NCBI GenBank assembly: GCA_003987775.1
Contig: RXJD01000037.1
Coordinates: 148,710-212,709, forward strand
Reading direction: 5' to 3'
Length of the DNA stretch: 64,000 nt
Source: Mycobacterium sp.
GTDB taxonomy: Bacteria > Actinomycetota > Actinomycetes > Mycobacteriales > Mycobacteriaceae
The notes under the pieces were generated by a model that was given only the letters and a program-made list of their open reading frames with translations, did not search any database and was not told where the DNA came from. This document shows positions 6,854 through 12,382 of this stretch, piece by piece. Within the stretch, counting starts at the first letter, position 1. The number at the start of each line of letters is the position of its first letter. Both the position numbers and the translations under genes were made by a program.

Positions 6854-7372
6854 TCAGCCCTGAGAGCCGGCCGCCAACCGGTTGGCGCAGGCGATCACCG
6901 CGCGCAACGCCGACTCGGTGGATTCCCGGCCCCACCCCATAGCCCACTCGGAACGCACGCCGTCGGTGCCGCGGACGAAGGTAGCTGTGTCATTTCCTGC
7001 GCACATCTGGTGAAAGTTCAGGGTTTCCACGTGGACTCCGCGGGCATGAAGCATCGCGGTAAGCGCGGCGACCGCTCCCCCGGCCGCCGCGGTCGACGTC
7101 GCGATGCGGTCGCCGACAGCGATCACCGCACGGAAGTTGCGCGCCTGCGGCCCCATCCGCGCCGGATGGCGCTCGACGTCGACGCATGACCACTGCCCCA
7201 GGCGCACCGGCCCGGCGGTCTGGCCATAGACGGCGACGAAGCGCTCCCACGACAGGGCGGCGGCCTGATCGCGTAACCCCCGTGGCAACGCGACCCCGAA
7301 GTGGCGATTGAACCACCCGGCGGCGGAACCGGATTCACTGAAACAGTGGCGATGTGGGCTGAGGACTGTCAT
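6854..7372 (-). CDS. Stand-alone alpha-isopropylmalate synthase regulatory domain protein
   Basis: A 172-residue protein resembling only the C-terminal leucine-binding/dimerisation (LeuA_dimer) domain of 2-isopropylmalate synthase. The relevant parts are FRAVIAVGDRIATSTAAAGGAVAALTAMLHARG in the middle and STESALRAVIACANRL at the C-terminus, the latter like the GIDANI-to-AVVSAVNRL end of LeuA. No TIM-barrel catalytic domain is present, so it cannot make isopropylmalate alone. It could pair with LeuA or sense a branched-chain metabolite; this is inference. ATG 7372 is preceded by AGAAGG, and the 5' leader (7381-7486) carries a pseudoknot-type RNA structure. The gene is tail-to-tail with cyp136. 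Confidence 0.75.
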   Translation of the reverse strand: MTVLSPHRHCFSESGSAAGWFNRHFGVALPRGLRDQAAALSWERFVAVYGQTAGPVRLGQWSCVDVERHPARMGPQARNFRAVIAVGDRIATSTAAAGGAVAALTAMLHARGVHVETLNFHQMCAGNDTATFVRGTDGVRSEWAMGWGRESTESALRAVIACANRLAAGSQG

Positions 7373-7380
7373 TGCGCCGG

Positions 7381-7399
7381 CCTTCTCTGGCTCGAAGGA
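7381..7399 (-). promoter_or_regulatory. Small hairpin covering the ribosome-binding site
   Basis: On the transcript, CCTTC (7399-7395) can pair with GAAGG (7385-7381), the likely Shine-Dalgarno sequence of the downstream regulatory-domain gene. A nine-base loop separates them. Such a hairpin could hide the ribosome site; its use is inferred. Confidence 0.4.
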
Positions 7400-7409
7400 G
7401 CGACCGACG

Positions 7410-7477
7410 GTAGTAGCTTCCGACCCACAGCGGGGGGTCGGTCTGGATCAGACCCCGCTGCGGGTGCTGGCTACTAC
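7410..7477 (-). ncRNA. Pseudoknot-type RNA leader (LEU-element-like)
   Basis: Read on the minus strand, CAGCGGG (7460-7454) pairs with CCCGCTG (7434-7428), and CCGACCC (7441-7435) pairs with GGGTCGG (7426-7420). The order of the four arms gives an H-type pseudoknot with two perfect 7-bp stems that can stack directly. The first loop carries a small hairpin (TCTG/CAGA, 7452-7442). An outer perfect 8-bp stem GTAGTAGC/GCTACTAC (7477-7470 with 7417-7410) encloses the whole. A conserved pseudoknot called the LEU element has been described upstream of actinobacterial leuA operons. This leader precedes a leuA-type domain gene, so it may be an instance, though I could not compare sequences. Confidence 0.6.
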
Positions 7478-7486
7478 GGCAAGCAT
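7448..7486 (-). CDS. Candidate 12-residue leader peptide
   Basis: ATG at 7486 opens a short frame MLAVVASTRSGV ending in TGA at 7448. Two successive GTA valine codons, which are rare in a genome this GC-rich, lie exactly in the 5' arm of the enclosing 8-bp stem, and the AGC-GGG codons lie in the first pseudoknot arm. A ribosome pausing here would therefore disrupt those stems. There is no strong ribosome site before the ATG, so translation is uncertain. Confidence 0.35.
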   Translation of the reverse strand: MLAVVASTRSGV

Positions 7487-7625
7487 GAGAAGACGCACGA
7501 GCGGAGACACTAGACGGCGTGCCCGGTCGAGCGCAACCACATTTCCGACTCAGCCGATTTCGGAATCTCATTCGCGAATTAGTCCGGATCGCCGGAAAAC
7601 TGCTCGAGGGATGCATTGCCGGAGT

Positions 7626-7688: not shown

Positions 7689-7847
7689 ATGAAAGTACGC
7701 AAATCTGGCAGGGGGATTCATTCGGTGAAGGTTGTCGCCGCCGTGCTGGCCGCCGCTTTTGCTTTGACTGCAGCGGGTTGTACTGCGCAAACCGGCGCCA
7801 GCGTCGGTGGAACCATCGGCAATCCGCCTCCGACCGTCGCGCCGTAG
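7689..7847 (+). CDS. Tiny lipoprotein 1
   Basis: A 52-residue secreted lipoprotein precursor starting at ATG 7689 behind GGGGGA. A basic N-terminus (MKVRKSGRGIHSVK) leads into a hydrophobic helix and the lipobox TAAGC with Cys31. The mature part is only 22 residues, starting CTAQTG and ending in a Pro-rich NPPPTVAP. An in-frame GTG 13 codons in is an alternative start. It is the first of three similar genes in a row (others at 8093 and 8474). No function is recognised; a lipid-anchored peptide on the outer face of the membrane is the inference. Confidence 0.7.
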   Translation: MKVRKSGRGIHSVKVVAAVLAAAFALTAAGCTAQTGASVGGTIGNPPPTVAP

Positions 7848-8092: not shown

Positions 8093-8230
8093 ATGCGCAC
8101 TCACCCGAAGACCGTTCAGGTTGTCGGAGCCCTGATCCTGGCGGCATTCGCACTCTTCGCCGTCGGCTGCAGCAAGCCGATGGATCCGGTAATCCAGCCC
8201 AACCAGGGCGAACTGTTCACCGGCCGGTAG
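8093..8230 (+). CDS. Tiny lipoprotein 2
   Basis: A 45-residue precursor starting at ATG 8093 behind GGAGAAAGG. The signal peptide runs MRTHPKTVQVVGALILAAFA and ends in the lipobox FAVGC with Cys26. The mature peptide is 20 residues: CSKPMDPV, then a polar GELFTGR end. Size, architecture and upstream element match its neighbours at 7689 and 8474, suggesting tandem duplication followed by divergence of the mature part. No known family is recognised. Confidence 0.7.
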   Translation: MRTHPKTVQVVGALILAAFALFAVGCSKPMDPVIQPNQGELFTGR

Positions 8231-8473: not shown

Positions 8474-8617
8474 ATGAGCGCAAGTACCAGGGTGAAAGCC
8501 GCGATCGGCGCCGCCTTGTTCGCCGGATTCGCCGTGCTGTCGGTCGGCTGCAGCATGAAGACACCGGTTACCCCGGTTGCCCCGGCGCCGCCGCCCGTCG
8601 AGCAGGTTCCCCAGTAG
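8474..8617 (+). CDS. Tiny lipoprotein 3
   Basis: A 47-residue precursor starting at ATG 8474 behind GGAGGGG. It has a short basic start (MSASTRVK), a hydrophobic stretch, and the lipobox LSVGC with Cys26. The mature 22 residues (CSMKTPVTP, then a run of Pro/Ala/Val ending VEQVPQ) are Pro-rich like lipoprotein 1. It is convergent with the MEDS/ATPase gene, and a 6-bp hairpin (CCCGGC 8618-8623 with GCCGGG 8639-8644) lies between the two stops. Function unknown. Confidence 0.7.
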   Translation: MSASTRVKAAIGAALFAGFAVLSVGCSMKTPVTPVAPAPPPVEQVPQ

Positions 8618-8644: not shown

Positions 8645-9622
8645 TCAGCAATCCCGGGACGCGTCCAACCTCAGGTACGCCTGAATGGTGGTGCCGCTGG
8701 CCGTGGTGTGAGTGCGCACCAGATCCGCCATCGCGTTGACCAGAAACAAACCGCGACTGGCGGTGCCGCTGGCACTCGGGCGCTTGAGCCCCACGAAGGG
8801 GTCGTCGAGTCGCCCACCGTCGCGGGCCTCGCAGATCAGGTGCTCCTTGTCCCGCCAGAAGGCCAGCCGACAGGAGCCCCCGGCGTACTGAAGGCTGTTC
8901 GTGGCCAGTTCCGTGGCGATCATCTGCAGGTCGTCCAGACCGTCCTTGGACAGCCCGACCCAGCCGGCGTAGTCGGCGGCGAACGACCGCGCCGGCCGCA
9001 GGTCGGCGCTGCGCCGAACCGTGTAGGTCACCGCTCCCGGGTGAGCGGGCAGCGGCTTGTTGCAGCGCGCCAGCACCTCATCCGGCGCGTAGTCGTCGCT
9101 GGGATACGCCGATTCCCCGTGCCAAAGCAGAGGATGGGTGCTGCGGGCGTCTGCCAGCACATCGTCGGGCAGGTGCGTGGCGTCGAACAGACACAACCCC
9201 GTCAGGTTCCGGGTCTTCAGCGCCCCGTTGATGAATGCTTCGTGCTCCATACAGGCCAGACACTCGTCTGCGGTGCGGCCACGCCACACGAGTTGACTCA
9301 CGATGCGGACGGTGCGGTCGGCGTGCTTCTCGGCGAACGCCGTTTCCATCGCCAGGAACCGACTCGGGTTTCGCGCCGCCTCGGCGATGTCCACCAGACG
9401 CAACTCGCCGTCAGAGCCGGCGCGCGCCGCATGCAGTTCGGGACCCAGCATCGCCAGCCTGTCACCGGGGACGGCGACCAGCACCGGCTCGTCTACCGCG
9501 AAGCCGTCGGCGGCAAACCGCATCACAAAGTCCAGACATTCCCGCTCGGATTGATAGAACAGCGCGGAATGCACGAAGCCACTCGTCGCATCCGGGGGCC
9601 TGATCGCCGTGCTCGTGGTCAT
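8645..9622 (-). CDS. MEDS-domain sensor fused to RsbW-type ATPase
   Basis: A 325-residue cytoplasmic signalling protein. ATG 9622 has GGGAG upstream and is preferred over a longer open frame. Residues ~15-175 look like a MEDS (DcmR-type sensory) domain: FVHSALFYQSERECLDFVMRF, then a decayed P-loop-like region and LFDATHLPDD. Residues ~200-320 are a GHKL ATPase of the anti-sigma kinase type: N-box ELATNSLQYAGG, G1-box EARDGGRLDDP and G2-like GTASRGLFLVNAMAD. It probably senses a small molecule and phosphorylates or binds an anti-sigma antagonist. No sigma factor or antagonist gene is adjacent, so the partner is elsewhere. Confidence 0.8.
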   Translation of the reverse strand: MTTSTAIRPPDATSGFVHSALFYQSERECLDFVMRFAADGFAVDEPVLVAVPGDRLAMLGPELHAARAGSDGELRLVDIAEAARNPSRFLAMETAFAEKHADRTVRIVSQLVWRGRTADECLACMEHEAFINGALKTRNLTGLCLFDATHLPDDVLADARSTHPLLWHGESAYPSDDYAPDEVLARCNKPLPAHPGAVTYTVRRSADLRPARSFAADYAGWVGLSKDGLDDLQMIATELATNSLQYAGGSCRLAFWRDKEHLICEARDGGRLDDPFVGLKRPSASGTASRGLFLVNAMADLVRTHTTASGTTIQAYLRLDASRDC

Positions 9623-9735
9623 AAAACTCCCACCCAACCTCAGCCGGCACGCCGCTGTACCGCCTGTCACTTGAGTATTGCTGTACCCCAGGCAAGGCTT
9701 TGCTAAGCAGGGCCGTGCCGCTGCGCGTGTCGCGG

Positions 9736-11190
9736 CTAGAGCCACCACGACGCCGCGGCGTCCAGGTGCCGGCGGATCCGGTATCGCGCCAAGCTGTCGT
9801 CACCGGACTCGATCGCGTCCAGTATGCGCAGGTGTGCCGTTTCGACGGCAACCACGTCGGTCGACGTCAACTGTGCCTGTCCGGTCGTGGACCAATGCCG
9901 GCGGAACAGCTCAACGATGATTCGCAGGAATAGGTCGAGCAGCGCGTTGCCGGCAAGGCGCGCCAGGCCGACGTGAAAGCGGAACTCTTCGATCGCCGCG
10001 TTGCGCGCGTCGTCGCTGCCTTCGCCCGCCACGCTCGACCAGCCCTGCGGGTCCAGGAAGTCCGCCACCTCCGGTTCGGCGCGACGCTGCACGACCTTGG
10101 CCACATTGTCGATCTCGATGGCATCGCGCACGCAGCGCAGGTCCTCCCGCGTGGGCTTGCGGTACTGGAGGTAGAGCGCGATGGTGTCGATGCTGGCCTG
10201 CGCCCGCGGCTTCGCGACGACCAGCCCTCCGCCGGGGCCCCGGCGCATGTGTGCCACTTCGTGATATTCCAGGAGTCGCACCGCTTCCCGCAGTGCCGCC
10301 CGGCTCACCCGGTAGCGCTCCAAAAGCGCCGACTCGGTGCCGAACACCGAACCAACCTGCCAGCCGCTGACGGCGATGTCGTCGGCGATGCCGGCAGCCA
10401 GGACTTCGGCGAGCTTGCCACGCGGCGCCTCGGTGGCCAGGCGCTTGCCGAGCGACCCGGGCCGGGCTCGACGTGCCGGGTCGCGGTGTTCGGCCAGCCA
10501 GGCGGTGACGCGTTCCACGTGCCGCTCGCTGAGCGTCTTGGCCCGGGCCGAATCACCGGCGGTGACGGCGTTGACGATGTCGGCGTGGGCACCGCGCATC
10601 CGGTGGGCGGCATCGGCGGCCTCGGCCGCCGAACCGGTCCGCGAGGCGCGGGCATAGCGTTTGGTCAGCCTCATCAGGACATCGATGAAGAGTTGCAGGA
10701 CTGGGTTTTTCGACTGCTCAGCGAGCGCGATGTGGAACTCGTCGCTAGGCGCCGGCAGTCCGGGGCGCCACTGCTCCTCGGCGCTCAGCACCGATCGCAG
10801 CCGCCCTATCCCGGCTTCGTCGATGCGTTCGGCCGCCAGCGCGGCGGCCAGCGGCTCGAGCACCAGCCGCGCGTTGAGCAGATCAGCCAGCGTGGTGCCG
10901 AGATATTCGAGGTAGATCACGACGGCGCGGGTCGCCGGGCCGGCGTCCGGCTCGCAGATGATCAGCCCGCCGTTCGGCCCGCGCCGCATGCGCGCCACCT
11001 GGTGGTGTTCGACCAGACGGACTGCTTCGCGCAACACCGAGCGGCTCGCGCCATACCGTTGTTGCAGAGCCGCCTCCGAGCCGAGCGACTCCCCGACCGC
11101 CCAGCCGCGGCGGACGATGTCTTCTTCGATGCGACGGGCGATCTTCGCGGCTCGCTTATCCGGCCGGATTTGGTCCGGTTCGACGGTCAC
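9736..11190 (-). CDS. Tandem GntR/FadR-type regulator (two fused repressors)
   Basis: A 484-residue regulator starting at GTG 11190, containing two complete GntR-FCD modules. Module 1 (~1-235) has a winged helix with SEAALQQRYGASRSVLREAVRLVEHH and MRRGPNGGL. Module 2 (~245-484) repeats it as TESALLERYRVSRAALREAVRLLEYH and MRRGPGGGL. Each helix-turn-helix is followed by an all-helical FCD ligand domain (ARLVLEPLAAALAAE; VRDAIEIDNVAKVVQ). It matches Rv3060c, which is similarly long. Its start lies 7 bases after the thiolase-like gene stops, so they form one operon. It is the likely regulator of the surrounding fatty-acid genes, with acyl-CoA as a plausible effector. Confidence 0.9.
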   Translation of the reverse strand: MTVEPDQIRPDKRAAKIARRIEEDIVRRGWAVGESLGSEAALQQRYGASRSVLREAVRLVEHHQVARMRRGPNGGLIICEPDAGPATRAVVIYLEYLGTTLADLLNARLVLEPLAAALAAERIDEAGIGRLRSVLSAEEQWRPGLPAPSDEFHIALAEQSKNPVLQLFIDVLMRLTKRYARASRTGSAAEAADAAHRMRGAHADIVNAVTAGDSARAKTLSERHVERVTAWLAEHRDPARRARPGSLGKRLATEAPRGKLAEVLAAGIADDIAVSGWQVGSVFGTESALLERYRVSRAALREAVRLLEYHEVAHMRRGPGGGLVVAKPRAQASIDTIALYLQYRKPTREDLRCVRDAIEIDNVAKVVQRRAEPEVADFLDPQGWSSVAGEGSDDARNAAIEEFRFHVGLARLAGNALLDLFLRIIVELFRRHWSTTGQAQLTSTDVVAVETAHLRILDAIESGDDSLARYRIRRHLDAAASWWL

Positions 11191-11197
11191 TGCCGGC

Positions 11198-12382
11198 TCA
11201 ACACGTGAGCAGCATGCAGCCCGCGACCGGACCACCGCCCACGGACACCACGCCGACCTCGGGGCGCCGCTGCACCTGCCGCTCCCCCGCCTCGCCGCGC
11301 AGCTGCAGGCATCCCTCGTGCAACGCCCAGTAGCCGTGCATGCGGCCGGCCGAGAGCTGGCCGCCATAGGTGTTCAGCGGCAGCCGGCCGTCCCTGGCGA
11401 TACGGGCGCCGCCTTCGACGAACGGCCCCGCCTCGCCGTCGCCGCACACACCGAGAGCTTCCAGCCACGAGAGGGTGAGGAAAGTGAAGCCGTCGTACAA
11501 CTGGGCGACGTCGAGGTCCGCCGGCGTCAATTCCGTCCGCGACCACATCTGCGCGGTCGCGTCCGACATCGCCATCTTCGGGTAATCCGGCCGGTGAAAC
11601 CATCCGCCGGCGCCGTCGGAACCGCCGATGGCCTCGACGTTCACGGCGCGGTGCGGGCAGTCGCCGGCGTACTCGGCGTGCGAAACCACCACCGCGATCG
11701 AGCCGTCAATGGGCACATCGCAATCCAGCAACCCGAACGGCGTCGATACCGGGCGGGCGCCCAGGTAATCGGCCATCGTCATCGGATCGCGGTAGACCGC
11801 AAGGGGATTCAGTGCCGCGTTGCGGCGGCCATTAAGGGCGATCCAGCCCAGTTGCTCCTTGGTCGTTCCGTAGAGATCCATGTGCCGCCGGCAGTTCAGC
11901 GCCAGCCAATTGGCTGCCGAATACGCGTGCGCGGCAACCAGATCGTTGATGTCGTCCATGGCGCCGACGGCCGGACGCTCACCTTCGGGTGCGTCGAACA
12001 TGCGAGCCAGTGGTGGAGCAGGGGCGTCCTTGTCCTGCAGGACGGTGCCGCCCAGCATCTGAATGGTGCGGTAGACCACGACATGGCGGGCCCGTCGCTC
12101 GGCAACCGCACGGCACGCCGACATCACCGGGCTCAGCAGACCGCCGGTGCCGAACCCACTTCCGCAATCGGCGGCGTCGATCCCCAGTTCGGCGTTGACC
12201 TCGGCGGCCGGGGTGTCGCCCAGTGTCGCGATGCCGTCGATGTCGGCCGCGCGCAGTCCGGCGTCCTCGATGGCGGTCCGCACCGCCTCCATCGTCAGAT
12301 CCCGCCCCGGAATACCGGTGCGACGGCCGATGCGCGAGATACCGATGCCGGAGACGATCGCGTCTTTTTCGAAGTACTTCAT
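11198..12382 (-). CDS. Thiolase-like / lipid-transfer protein
   Basis: A 394-residue member of the thiolase superfamily, SCP-x/Ltp2-like branch. ATG 12382 gives MKYFEKDAIVSGIGISRIGRR. Typical segments are GRDLTMEAVRTAIEDAGL, PADLDVAQLYDGFTFLTLSWLEALG and the C-terminal GPVAGCMLL. The active-site Cys of true degradative thiolases at the first position is not evident, as in Ltp-type aldolases that partner with a DUF35 OB-fold protein. Such a partner is divergently encoded at 12445. Together they may carry out a retro-aldol or thiolytic step on CoA esters of sterols or branched acids; this is inferred from family precedent. Confidence 0.82.
   Translation of the reverse strand: MKYFEKDAIVSGIGISRIGRRTGIPGRDLTMEAVRTAIEDAGLRAADIDGIATLGDTPAAEVNAELGIDAADCGSGFGTGGLLSPVMSACRAVAERRARHVVVYRTIQMLGGTVLQDKDAPAPPLARMFDAPEGERPAVGAMDDINDLVAAHAYSAANWLALNCRRHMDLYGTTKEQLGWIALNGRRNAALNPLAVYRDPMTMADYLGARPVSTPFGLLDCDVPIDGSIAVVVSHAEYAGDCPHRAVNVEAIGGSDGAGGWFHRPDYPKMAMSDATAQMWSRTELTPADLDVAQLYDGFTFLTLSWLEALGVCGDGEAGPFVEGGARIARDGRLPLNTYGGQLSAGRMHGYWALHEGCLQLRGEAGERQVQRRPEVGVVSVGGGPVAGCMLLTC

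Follow-up and report, generated by a model that had tools for sequence, protein, structure and literature searches.

LEU elements were described in 2005 upstream of actinobacterial leuA genes, together with a single look-alike in a transposase gene, and were proposed to bind a DEAD-box helicase-like protein of the ML1624 family (Seliverstov et al., PMC1262725). According to the same report, mutations in the leader peptide of Streptomyces coelicolor leuA had some effect, inconsistent with classical attenuation, and mutations of the leucine codons were without influence on regulation. Leader peptides or upstream open reading frames (uORFs) before leuA are also mentioned, in the accessible parts of the respective papers, for M. 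abscessus (PMC4974804), S. lividans (PMC8079986), C. glutamicum (PMC4046766, PMC3890552) and C. diphtheriae (PMC5784534), and that of S. lividans is described there as being transcribed leaderless (PMC8079986). A stand-alone gene for the LeuA regulatory domain that carries a LEU-type leader is found among none of the literature matches listed, supplements, preprints and subscription papers being outside the scope of that search, and the accessible portions of PMC4974804, PMC11057210, PMC4633059, PMC13236596, PMC11109978, PMC4833913, PMC8079986, PMC10464499, PMC4046766, PMC5784534 and PMC3890552 do not name one.

The window analyzed here, a stretch of 64,000 nucleotides of Mycobacterium sp. DNA, contains a leader of this kind on its minus strand. 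Sequence homology relates it to the leaders of leuA genes and marks it as a paralogue of the LEU element of actinobacteria. It is not a standard LEU element, as the leucine run and the position before leuA, two defining features of that class, are both missing. Its parts are as follows.

7507..7512, minus strand: TAGTGT, a candidate -10 box matching TANNNT, with a leaderless start predicted from the sequence
7448..7498, minus strand: uORF of 16 codons encoding VRLLMLAVVASTRSGV, with a GTG start at 7498 and a UGA stop (7450-7448) inside the pseudoknot region
7472..7477, minus strand: GUA GUA (Val-Val), codons 8 and 9 of the uORF
7487..7498, minus strand: 5′ arm of base stem P0, comprising the start codon and the Leu codons CUU CUC; predicted partner 7374-7387 (minimum free energy and duplex folding)
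7374..7387, minus strand: 3′ arm of P0, with the Shine-Dalgarno region AGAAGG (7386-7381) inside it (minimum free energy and duplex folding)
7470..7477, minus strand: 5′ arm of outer stem P1, GTAGTAGC (7477-7470); partner 7410-7417
7410..7417, minus strand: 3′ arm of P1, GCTACTAC (7417-7410); partner 7470-7477
7454..7460, minus strand: 5′ arm of pseudoknot stem S1, CAGCGGG (7460-7454), extending to 7465; partner 7428-7434
7428..7434, minus strand: 3′ arm of S1, CCCGCTG (7434-7428), supported by alignment A3
7437..7443, minus strand: 5′ arm of pseudoknot stem A, GACCGAC; partner 7402-7408
7402..7408, minus strand: 3′ arm of A, GUCGGUC, doubling as the 5′ arm of P4 and invariant in 99 same-genus leaders
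7435..7441, minus strand: 5′ arm of competing hairpin S2, CCGACCC (7441-7435); partner 7420-7426, kept mostly in stand-alone leaders
7420..7426, minus strand: 3′ arm of S2, GGGTCGG (7426-7420); partner 7435-7441
7375..7382, minus strand: 3′ arm of P4, GGCCGGCG, able to cover the Shine-Dalgarno region by pairing with 7402-7409
6854..7372, minus strand: stand-alone LeuA linker and regulatory-domain protein, 172 aa, ATG at 7372

The two 7-bp stems and the 8-bp outer stem around which the earlier note built its proposal (S1, S2 and P1) are all present exactly where it placed them. The rare GTA pair lies within the P1 arm, as it had noticed (GUA accounts for 10 of 299 Val codons in ten genes of the window), and the end of the uORF does overlap the pseudoknot region, with a frame and stop that are conserved among the leaders. 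The ATG frame from which that note read the peptide (7486-7448) likewise exists, but its ATG is not conserved, and the conserved start is the GTG at 7498, four codons earlier. This GTG stands eight bases beyond the TANNNT box (7512-7507), and an in-frame start 6-9 nt after such a box is seen in 94 of 99 leaders, as counted by a script that preferred starts with a box. At one locus (L016:2164-2166, minus strand), GTA occupies the position of the uORF start that is GTG in relatives. No sigma-70 consensus promoter was found for the leader, nor is there any intrinsic terminator-like site within 7330-7620 of the kind that a classical transcription attenuator would possess. The 161-nt stretch 7360-7520 folds more stably than all of 200 dinucleotide shuffles (z -3.31) in programs that ignore pseudoknots. 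Interleaved pairs of 7-bp stems are not rare by chance, since 30 of 2000 shuffles of this region contain one, as do 120 of 3452 windows across the 64 kb, and the case for the leader therefore rests on conservation.

The gene downstream encodes the LeuA regulatory domain and nothing else of that enzyme apart from a linker, in agreement with the earlier note. The window protein itself has no Pfam match at E values up to 10, and 34 of 42 relatives have one with an E value of at most 0.1; in profile and structure searches the window protein was matched. Its closest known counterparts are LeuA_dimer, the LeuA allosteric domain (PF08502), and M. tuberculosis LeuA (1sr9/3fig), and unlike that enzyme it lacks a TIM barrel. 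LiCMS is a citramalate synthase. The nearest named record for the window protein, from M. gordonae, is 80% identical.

The surroundings of the locus have features of their own. Three small ORFs (52, 45 and 47 aa) lie in a row on the plus strand at 7689-7847, 8093-8230 and 8474-8617, divergent from the leader, and all three have a lipoprotein-like signal that ends in Gly-Cys. On the minus strand, 8645-9748 joins a MEDS sensory domain to a histidine-kinase-like ATPase domain, and 9736-11367 encodes a protein of 543 aa in which FCD and GntR stretches both occur twice, so that it looks like a tandemly duplicated GntR-type regulator. The M. tuberculosis names of the neighboring genes are presumably cyp136, fadE22 and ligB.

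Both gene and leader are widespread in the family. Matches to the gene occur in 113 of 118 same-genus genomes, and in 103 of them a stand-alone gene is matched strongly, at E below 1e-35. The remaining 10 matches are weaker; most lie inside long LeuA-like frames, that of G088 covers 38 residues of a 98-aa frame, and that of G015 was not listed. Upstream DNA covers 101 of the 103 strong loci (G033 and G047 were left out for a contig end and a partial match), and the leader core is present at 100 of these 101, 99 recognized by script and L026 by eye. The one same-genus locus at which the leader is absent is L060 (G059), where the stand-alone gene is matched only from residue 34. Across the family, 113 of 151 genomes have the gene (E up to 1e-12), and it is represented in 25 of the 31 genera. 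The leader precedes it at 21 of 21 best loci of other genera and at 16 of 17 further loci chosen among divergent ones; at L308 no leader was found within 560 bases upstream, and the leaders of L304-L307 are so strongly diverged that they were judged by eye. These four belong to a genus with small genomes (g3) and have a GTGGAGG:CCTCCAC stem (GGACTGACCC:GGGTCGGTCC in L305), with leader peptides such as MSNILMRVPNPGGGED. Outside the family, none of 182 genomes has the stand-alone gene at E up to 1e-8. The labels of some relatives as slow or fast growers, and some genus labels, are assumptions.

Kinship with the LEU element had been suggested in the earlier note by analogy, and it is borne out by model searches. 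A model built from 42 stand-alone leaders and no leuA leader (R1) retrieves leuA leaders both inside and outside the family. With E limited to 1, it has matches in 138 of the 151 genomes of the family and in 77 of 197 genomes of the class, the matches outside the family being weak (best 7e-6). Among 15 R1 loci examined outside the family, 13 hold LeuA and two (L179, L183) hold neither gene; among 36 further loci, 32 precede leuA, two (L215, L216) precede the stand-alone gene, and two (L190, L194) again match neither. These four loci were considered as possible new targets and set aside, as they match neither leuA nor the stand-alone gene. A second model, made from both kinds of leader (R2), has matches with E no higher than 0.1 in all 39 family genomes searched (G119 only at 0.014) and finds exactly two places in the genome of the window, namely leuA (8.0e-24) and the present locus (9.9e-24). 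Of 20 extra R2 matches examined among the stronger ones, 18 precede leuA or a second leuA and two the stand-alone gene, so that every confirmed target at the R1 and R2 loci encodes a LeuA regulatory domain, alone or within LeuA. Three genomes, G048 (L184, L185), G142 (L326, L327) and G140 (L328, L329), carry a pair of leuA-like genes, and a separate LEU element belongs to either gene of the pair. The leuA of the same genome, on contig C93, has a leader of its own, with peptide VQRVLLLGRRDGV and core GACGGGGTCTGATCCAGACCGG, and it shares the core GGGGUCUGAUCCAGACCG with the window leader. In Rfam, no family exceeds its gathering threshold in the window, and the window leader and the leuA leader of the same genome have sub-threshold matches only, at E 1 and above.

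The two kinds of leader peptide can be matched position for position (MKRVLVVHRRSGV in stand-alone leaders versus MQRVLLLGRRGGV before leuA), and judged from these frames, the former usually reads Leu-Val-Val where the latter has Leu-Leu-Leu. In the window peptide, Leu-Leu falls on codons 3-4 and Val-Val on codons 8-9. Val-Val is present in 121 of the 122 stand-alone leader peptides counted, as GUAGUA in 99 and GUAGUU in 20, and 121 of these peptides end in SGV; a run of three leucines, the mark of the LEU element, is found in just one of the 122 and LL in 30. The count omits L120 and L121, which have no start in the assumed frame, as well as L134 and L159, and the 122 peptides were not anchored on GTAG, although the stand-alone rows of alignment A3 partly were. 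Eight divergent stand-alone leaders outside the 122 have no Val-Val (L120, L121, L164, L166 and L304-L307). Before leuA, LLL is found in 41 of 41 peptides and Val-Val in none, a result biased by an anchor score that favored two adjacent Leu codons; LLL is also present in 18 of 18 other leuA leaders whose frame came from the model alone, and in four of the five leuA loci omitted from A3 for want of an anchor. The conservation of GUA may serve stem P1 instead of sensing. In genus g23 (L309, L316-L320), the leader ORF is open for several dozen codons ahead of the conserved core.

The secondary structure was assessed on three alignments. A2 holds 42 stand-alone leaders, and A3 comprises 50 stand-alone and 41 leuA leaders, leaving out the five anchorless leuA loci and L182; L026 and L060 are not in A1. 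In A1, made with MAFFT, the 5′ arms of P1 and P0 are misaligned between two groups of leaders, so that A2 was used to assess P1, and duplex folding to assess P0. In A3, S1 and A together can form a pseudoknot of the LEU-element type with 98.7% of cells paired, and partners slid along the alignment pair in at most 57.0%. The ten pairs of S1 (7463-7454) are 99.7% paired among 90 distinct leaders, five of them with changes on both sides, and stem A (7443-7437:7408-7402) is 97.3% paired, with an exchange of A-U for G-C at 7438-7407. Across both stems, six pairs show both-side changes in 106 cells, where shuffles give 36 (sd 12.3). The cells do not count as independent events, and a large share of the signal comes from the contrast between the stand-alone and leuA groups. 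Six such pairs were also reached in 7 of 500 shuffles, and pair types are no more numerous than in shuffles (17 versus 16.4). Alternation among A-U, G-C and G-U also occurs inside each group. The earlier note had named orthologous leaders without compensatory changes as evidence against its proposal, and this is what the 42 stand-alone leaders of A2 display, with 0 double changes, because the core hardly varies; such changes appear once leuA leaders are added. Among same-genus leaders, conservation of the core sequence is extreme.

The pseudoknot as drawn in the earlier note (7460-7454:7434-7428 with 7441-7435:7426-7420) finds no support; the conserved partner of S1 is instead 7443-7437:7408-7402. 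If S1 and S2 formed together, a single nucleotide (7427) would have to span a helix of 7 bp, which seems sterically unlikely, and S2 is poor in leuA leaders (83.1% paired overall in A3). S2 and A use a common 5′ strand, and we infer that S2 is an alternative hairpin rather than a pseudoknot partner; two stand-alone sequences (L165, L168) exchange A-U for G-C within it. P4 can form with at least five contiguous base pairs in 86 of 99 same-genus leaders (12.6, sd 3.6, expected from shuffles); outside the genus, 12 of 23 leaders allow it (3.9 expected), these being counts over related and hence non-independent leaders. The result is a chain of pairings in which 7443-7437 can pair with 7426-7420 or 7408-7402, and 7408-7402 with 7443-7437 or 7382-7375. 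On the evidence of leader comparison, the uORF is conserved, S1 and A have the potential to form a pseudoknot, and S2 and P4 are predicted, mutually exclusive alternatives.

At the base of the leader, the start codon and two Leu codons of the uORF (7498-7487) can pair with the ribosome site of the gene (7387-7374). Of 99 same-genus leaders, 92 have two or more nucleotides of a Leu codon paired in P0, and 83 have three or more nucleotides of the purine tract paired, with a mean z of -1.39 against shuffled 3′ arms and a z below -1 in 63. It is weak in the 23 leaders of other genera (mean z -0.4), and native arms do better than swapped arms in only 69-77% of 124 leaders. In a footprint model with 27 nt blocked and nested folding, the mean unpaired probability of the ribosome site in the window is 0.0 when the leader is free, rises to 0.56-0.65 with the A site anywhere from CGT (the second codon) to the second GTA, and returns to 0.0-0.01 with the A site at GCC and beyond. 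This opening on stalling, followed by closing, is displayed by seven of 18 hand-picked leaders (L002, L004, L006, L011, L015, L089 and L097, the last fitting only in part, as its site is already open at 0.68 when free) and is absent from the other 11. The earlier note, whose ribosome-sensing layout is supported, had missed the earlier start codon, the predicted base stem between uORF codons and the Shine-Dalgarno region, and the replacement of LLL by Leu-Val-Val.

These features lead us to give an even chance to a reading in which the leader is a LEU-element paralogue that acts as a ribosome-stalling translational attenuator for the stand-alone LeuA regulatory-domain protein. When charged tRNAs are present, the ribosome would run to the UGA at 7450-7448 and cover the 5′ arm of S1; S2 would then form, 7408-7402 would pair with 7382-7375 as P4, and the base stem would re-form behind the ribosome, leaving the ribosome site hidden and the gene off. 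Under a shortage of valyl- or leucyl-tRNA, it would stall on the Leu or GUA GUA codons, breaking the base stem and allowing S1 to form. S1 would exclude S2, such that 7443-7437 would pair with 7408-7402 in the pseudoknot, 7382-7375 would be freed, and the gene would be translated. As its product is a LeuA regulatory domain that lacks the barrel, it would probably adjust LeuA in trans.

The finding in S. coelicolor that leucine-codon changes do not influence regulation stands against this translational attenuator (PMC1262725) and is what would be expected if the leader were instead the binding site of a regulatory protein, or of some other ligand, with the uORF being secondary. The phylogenetic distribution of ML1624, which matches that of LEU elements (PMC1262725), would fit such a site too, as would the extreme conservation of the core and the missing Val-Val of the eight divergent leaders. 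Yet a protein site has no need of sensor codons that differ by target gene, as Val-Val and LLL do here, nor of a conserved uORF frame and stop, and we regard this explanation as unlikely. It could also be that control is transcriptional, with the position of the ribosome deciding Rho-dependent or pause-dependent termination within the leader rather than translation of the gene. Rho has been discussed for mycobacterial cys leaders (PMC1262725), and the M. tuberculosis ilvB1 attenuator, with its LVVI codons, is proposed to be transcriptional in the accessible part of its description (PMC13236596), but the stretch 7330-7620 is devoid of terminator-like sites and the conserved complementarity is directed at the Shine-Dalgarno region, so that we consider transcriptional control quite unlikely.

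It is conceivable, finally, that translation of the uORF merely feeds ribosomes to the gene with little sensing of amino acids, and that the conservation reflects RNA stability. Reinitiation at leader peptides has indeed been proposed, as far as the available part of the source goes (PMC4833913). That notion, which we think improbable to a high degree, is hard to square with the 75 nt and several conserved helices that separate the uORF stop from the ATG at 7372, and with the retention of the rare GUA codons.

LeuA consumes alpha-ketoisovalerate, the direct precursor of valine. Building on the attenuator reading, we offer as a tentative, rather doubtful proposal that the leader is a LEU element tuned to valine and that, upon valine shortage, it induces a LeuA regulatory subunit acting in trans. 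This subunit would join or compete with the regulatory dimer of LeuA and throttle the enzyme, so that the precursor is saved for making valine. In origin, the locus would be a copy of leuA in which the leader and the 3′ domain were retained and the barrel was lost, with the sensor codons changing afterwards from Leu to Val. We attach a lower probability to this proposal because of the eight leaders that have no Val-Val. The locus gives the RNA element described for leuA in 2005 a second, family-wide target, in the form of an allosteric domain without its enzyme, and it also points to a protein regulator of the leucine-valine branch point. The natural swap of LLL for Val-Val in homologous leaders would moreover constitute a ready experiment on whether LEU elements sense codons.

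Among known systems, the ilvB attenuators of mycobacteria and corynebacteria, compared here through the available parts of their descriptions (PMC13236596, PMC11109978), resemble the window leader in the branched-chain codons of their leader peptides (LVVI in M. tuberculosis ilvB1) and differ from it by ending in an intrinsic terminator, which the window leader does not have. The LEU element (PMC1262725) has in common with the window leader a short uORF that ends inside a pseudoknot; a base stem between uORF codons and the ribosome site would be a further likeness, supported for the window leader within its genus and weak in other genera. The window leader departs from it in its place before a stand-alone gene rather than leuA, in a target that has no catalytic domain, in what usually appears as Leu-Val-Val for Leu-Leu-Leu, and in the additional competing hairpin S2.
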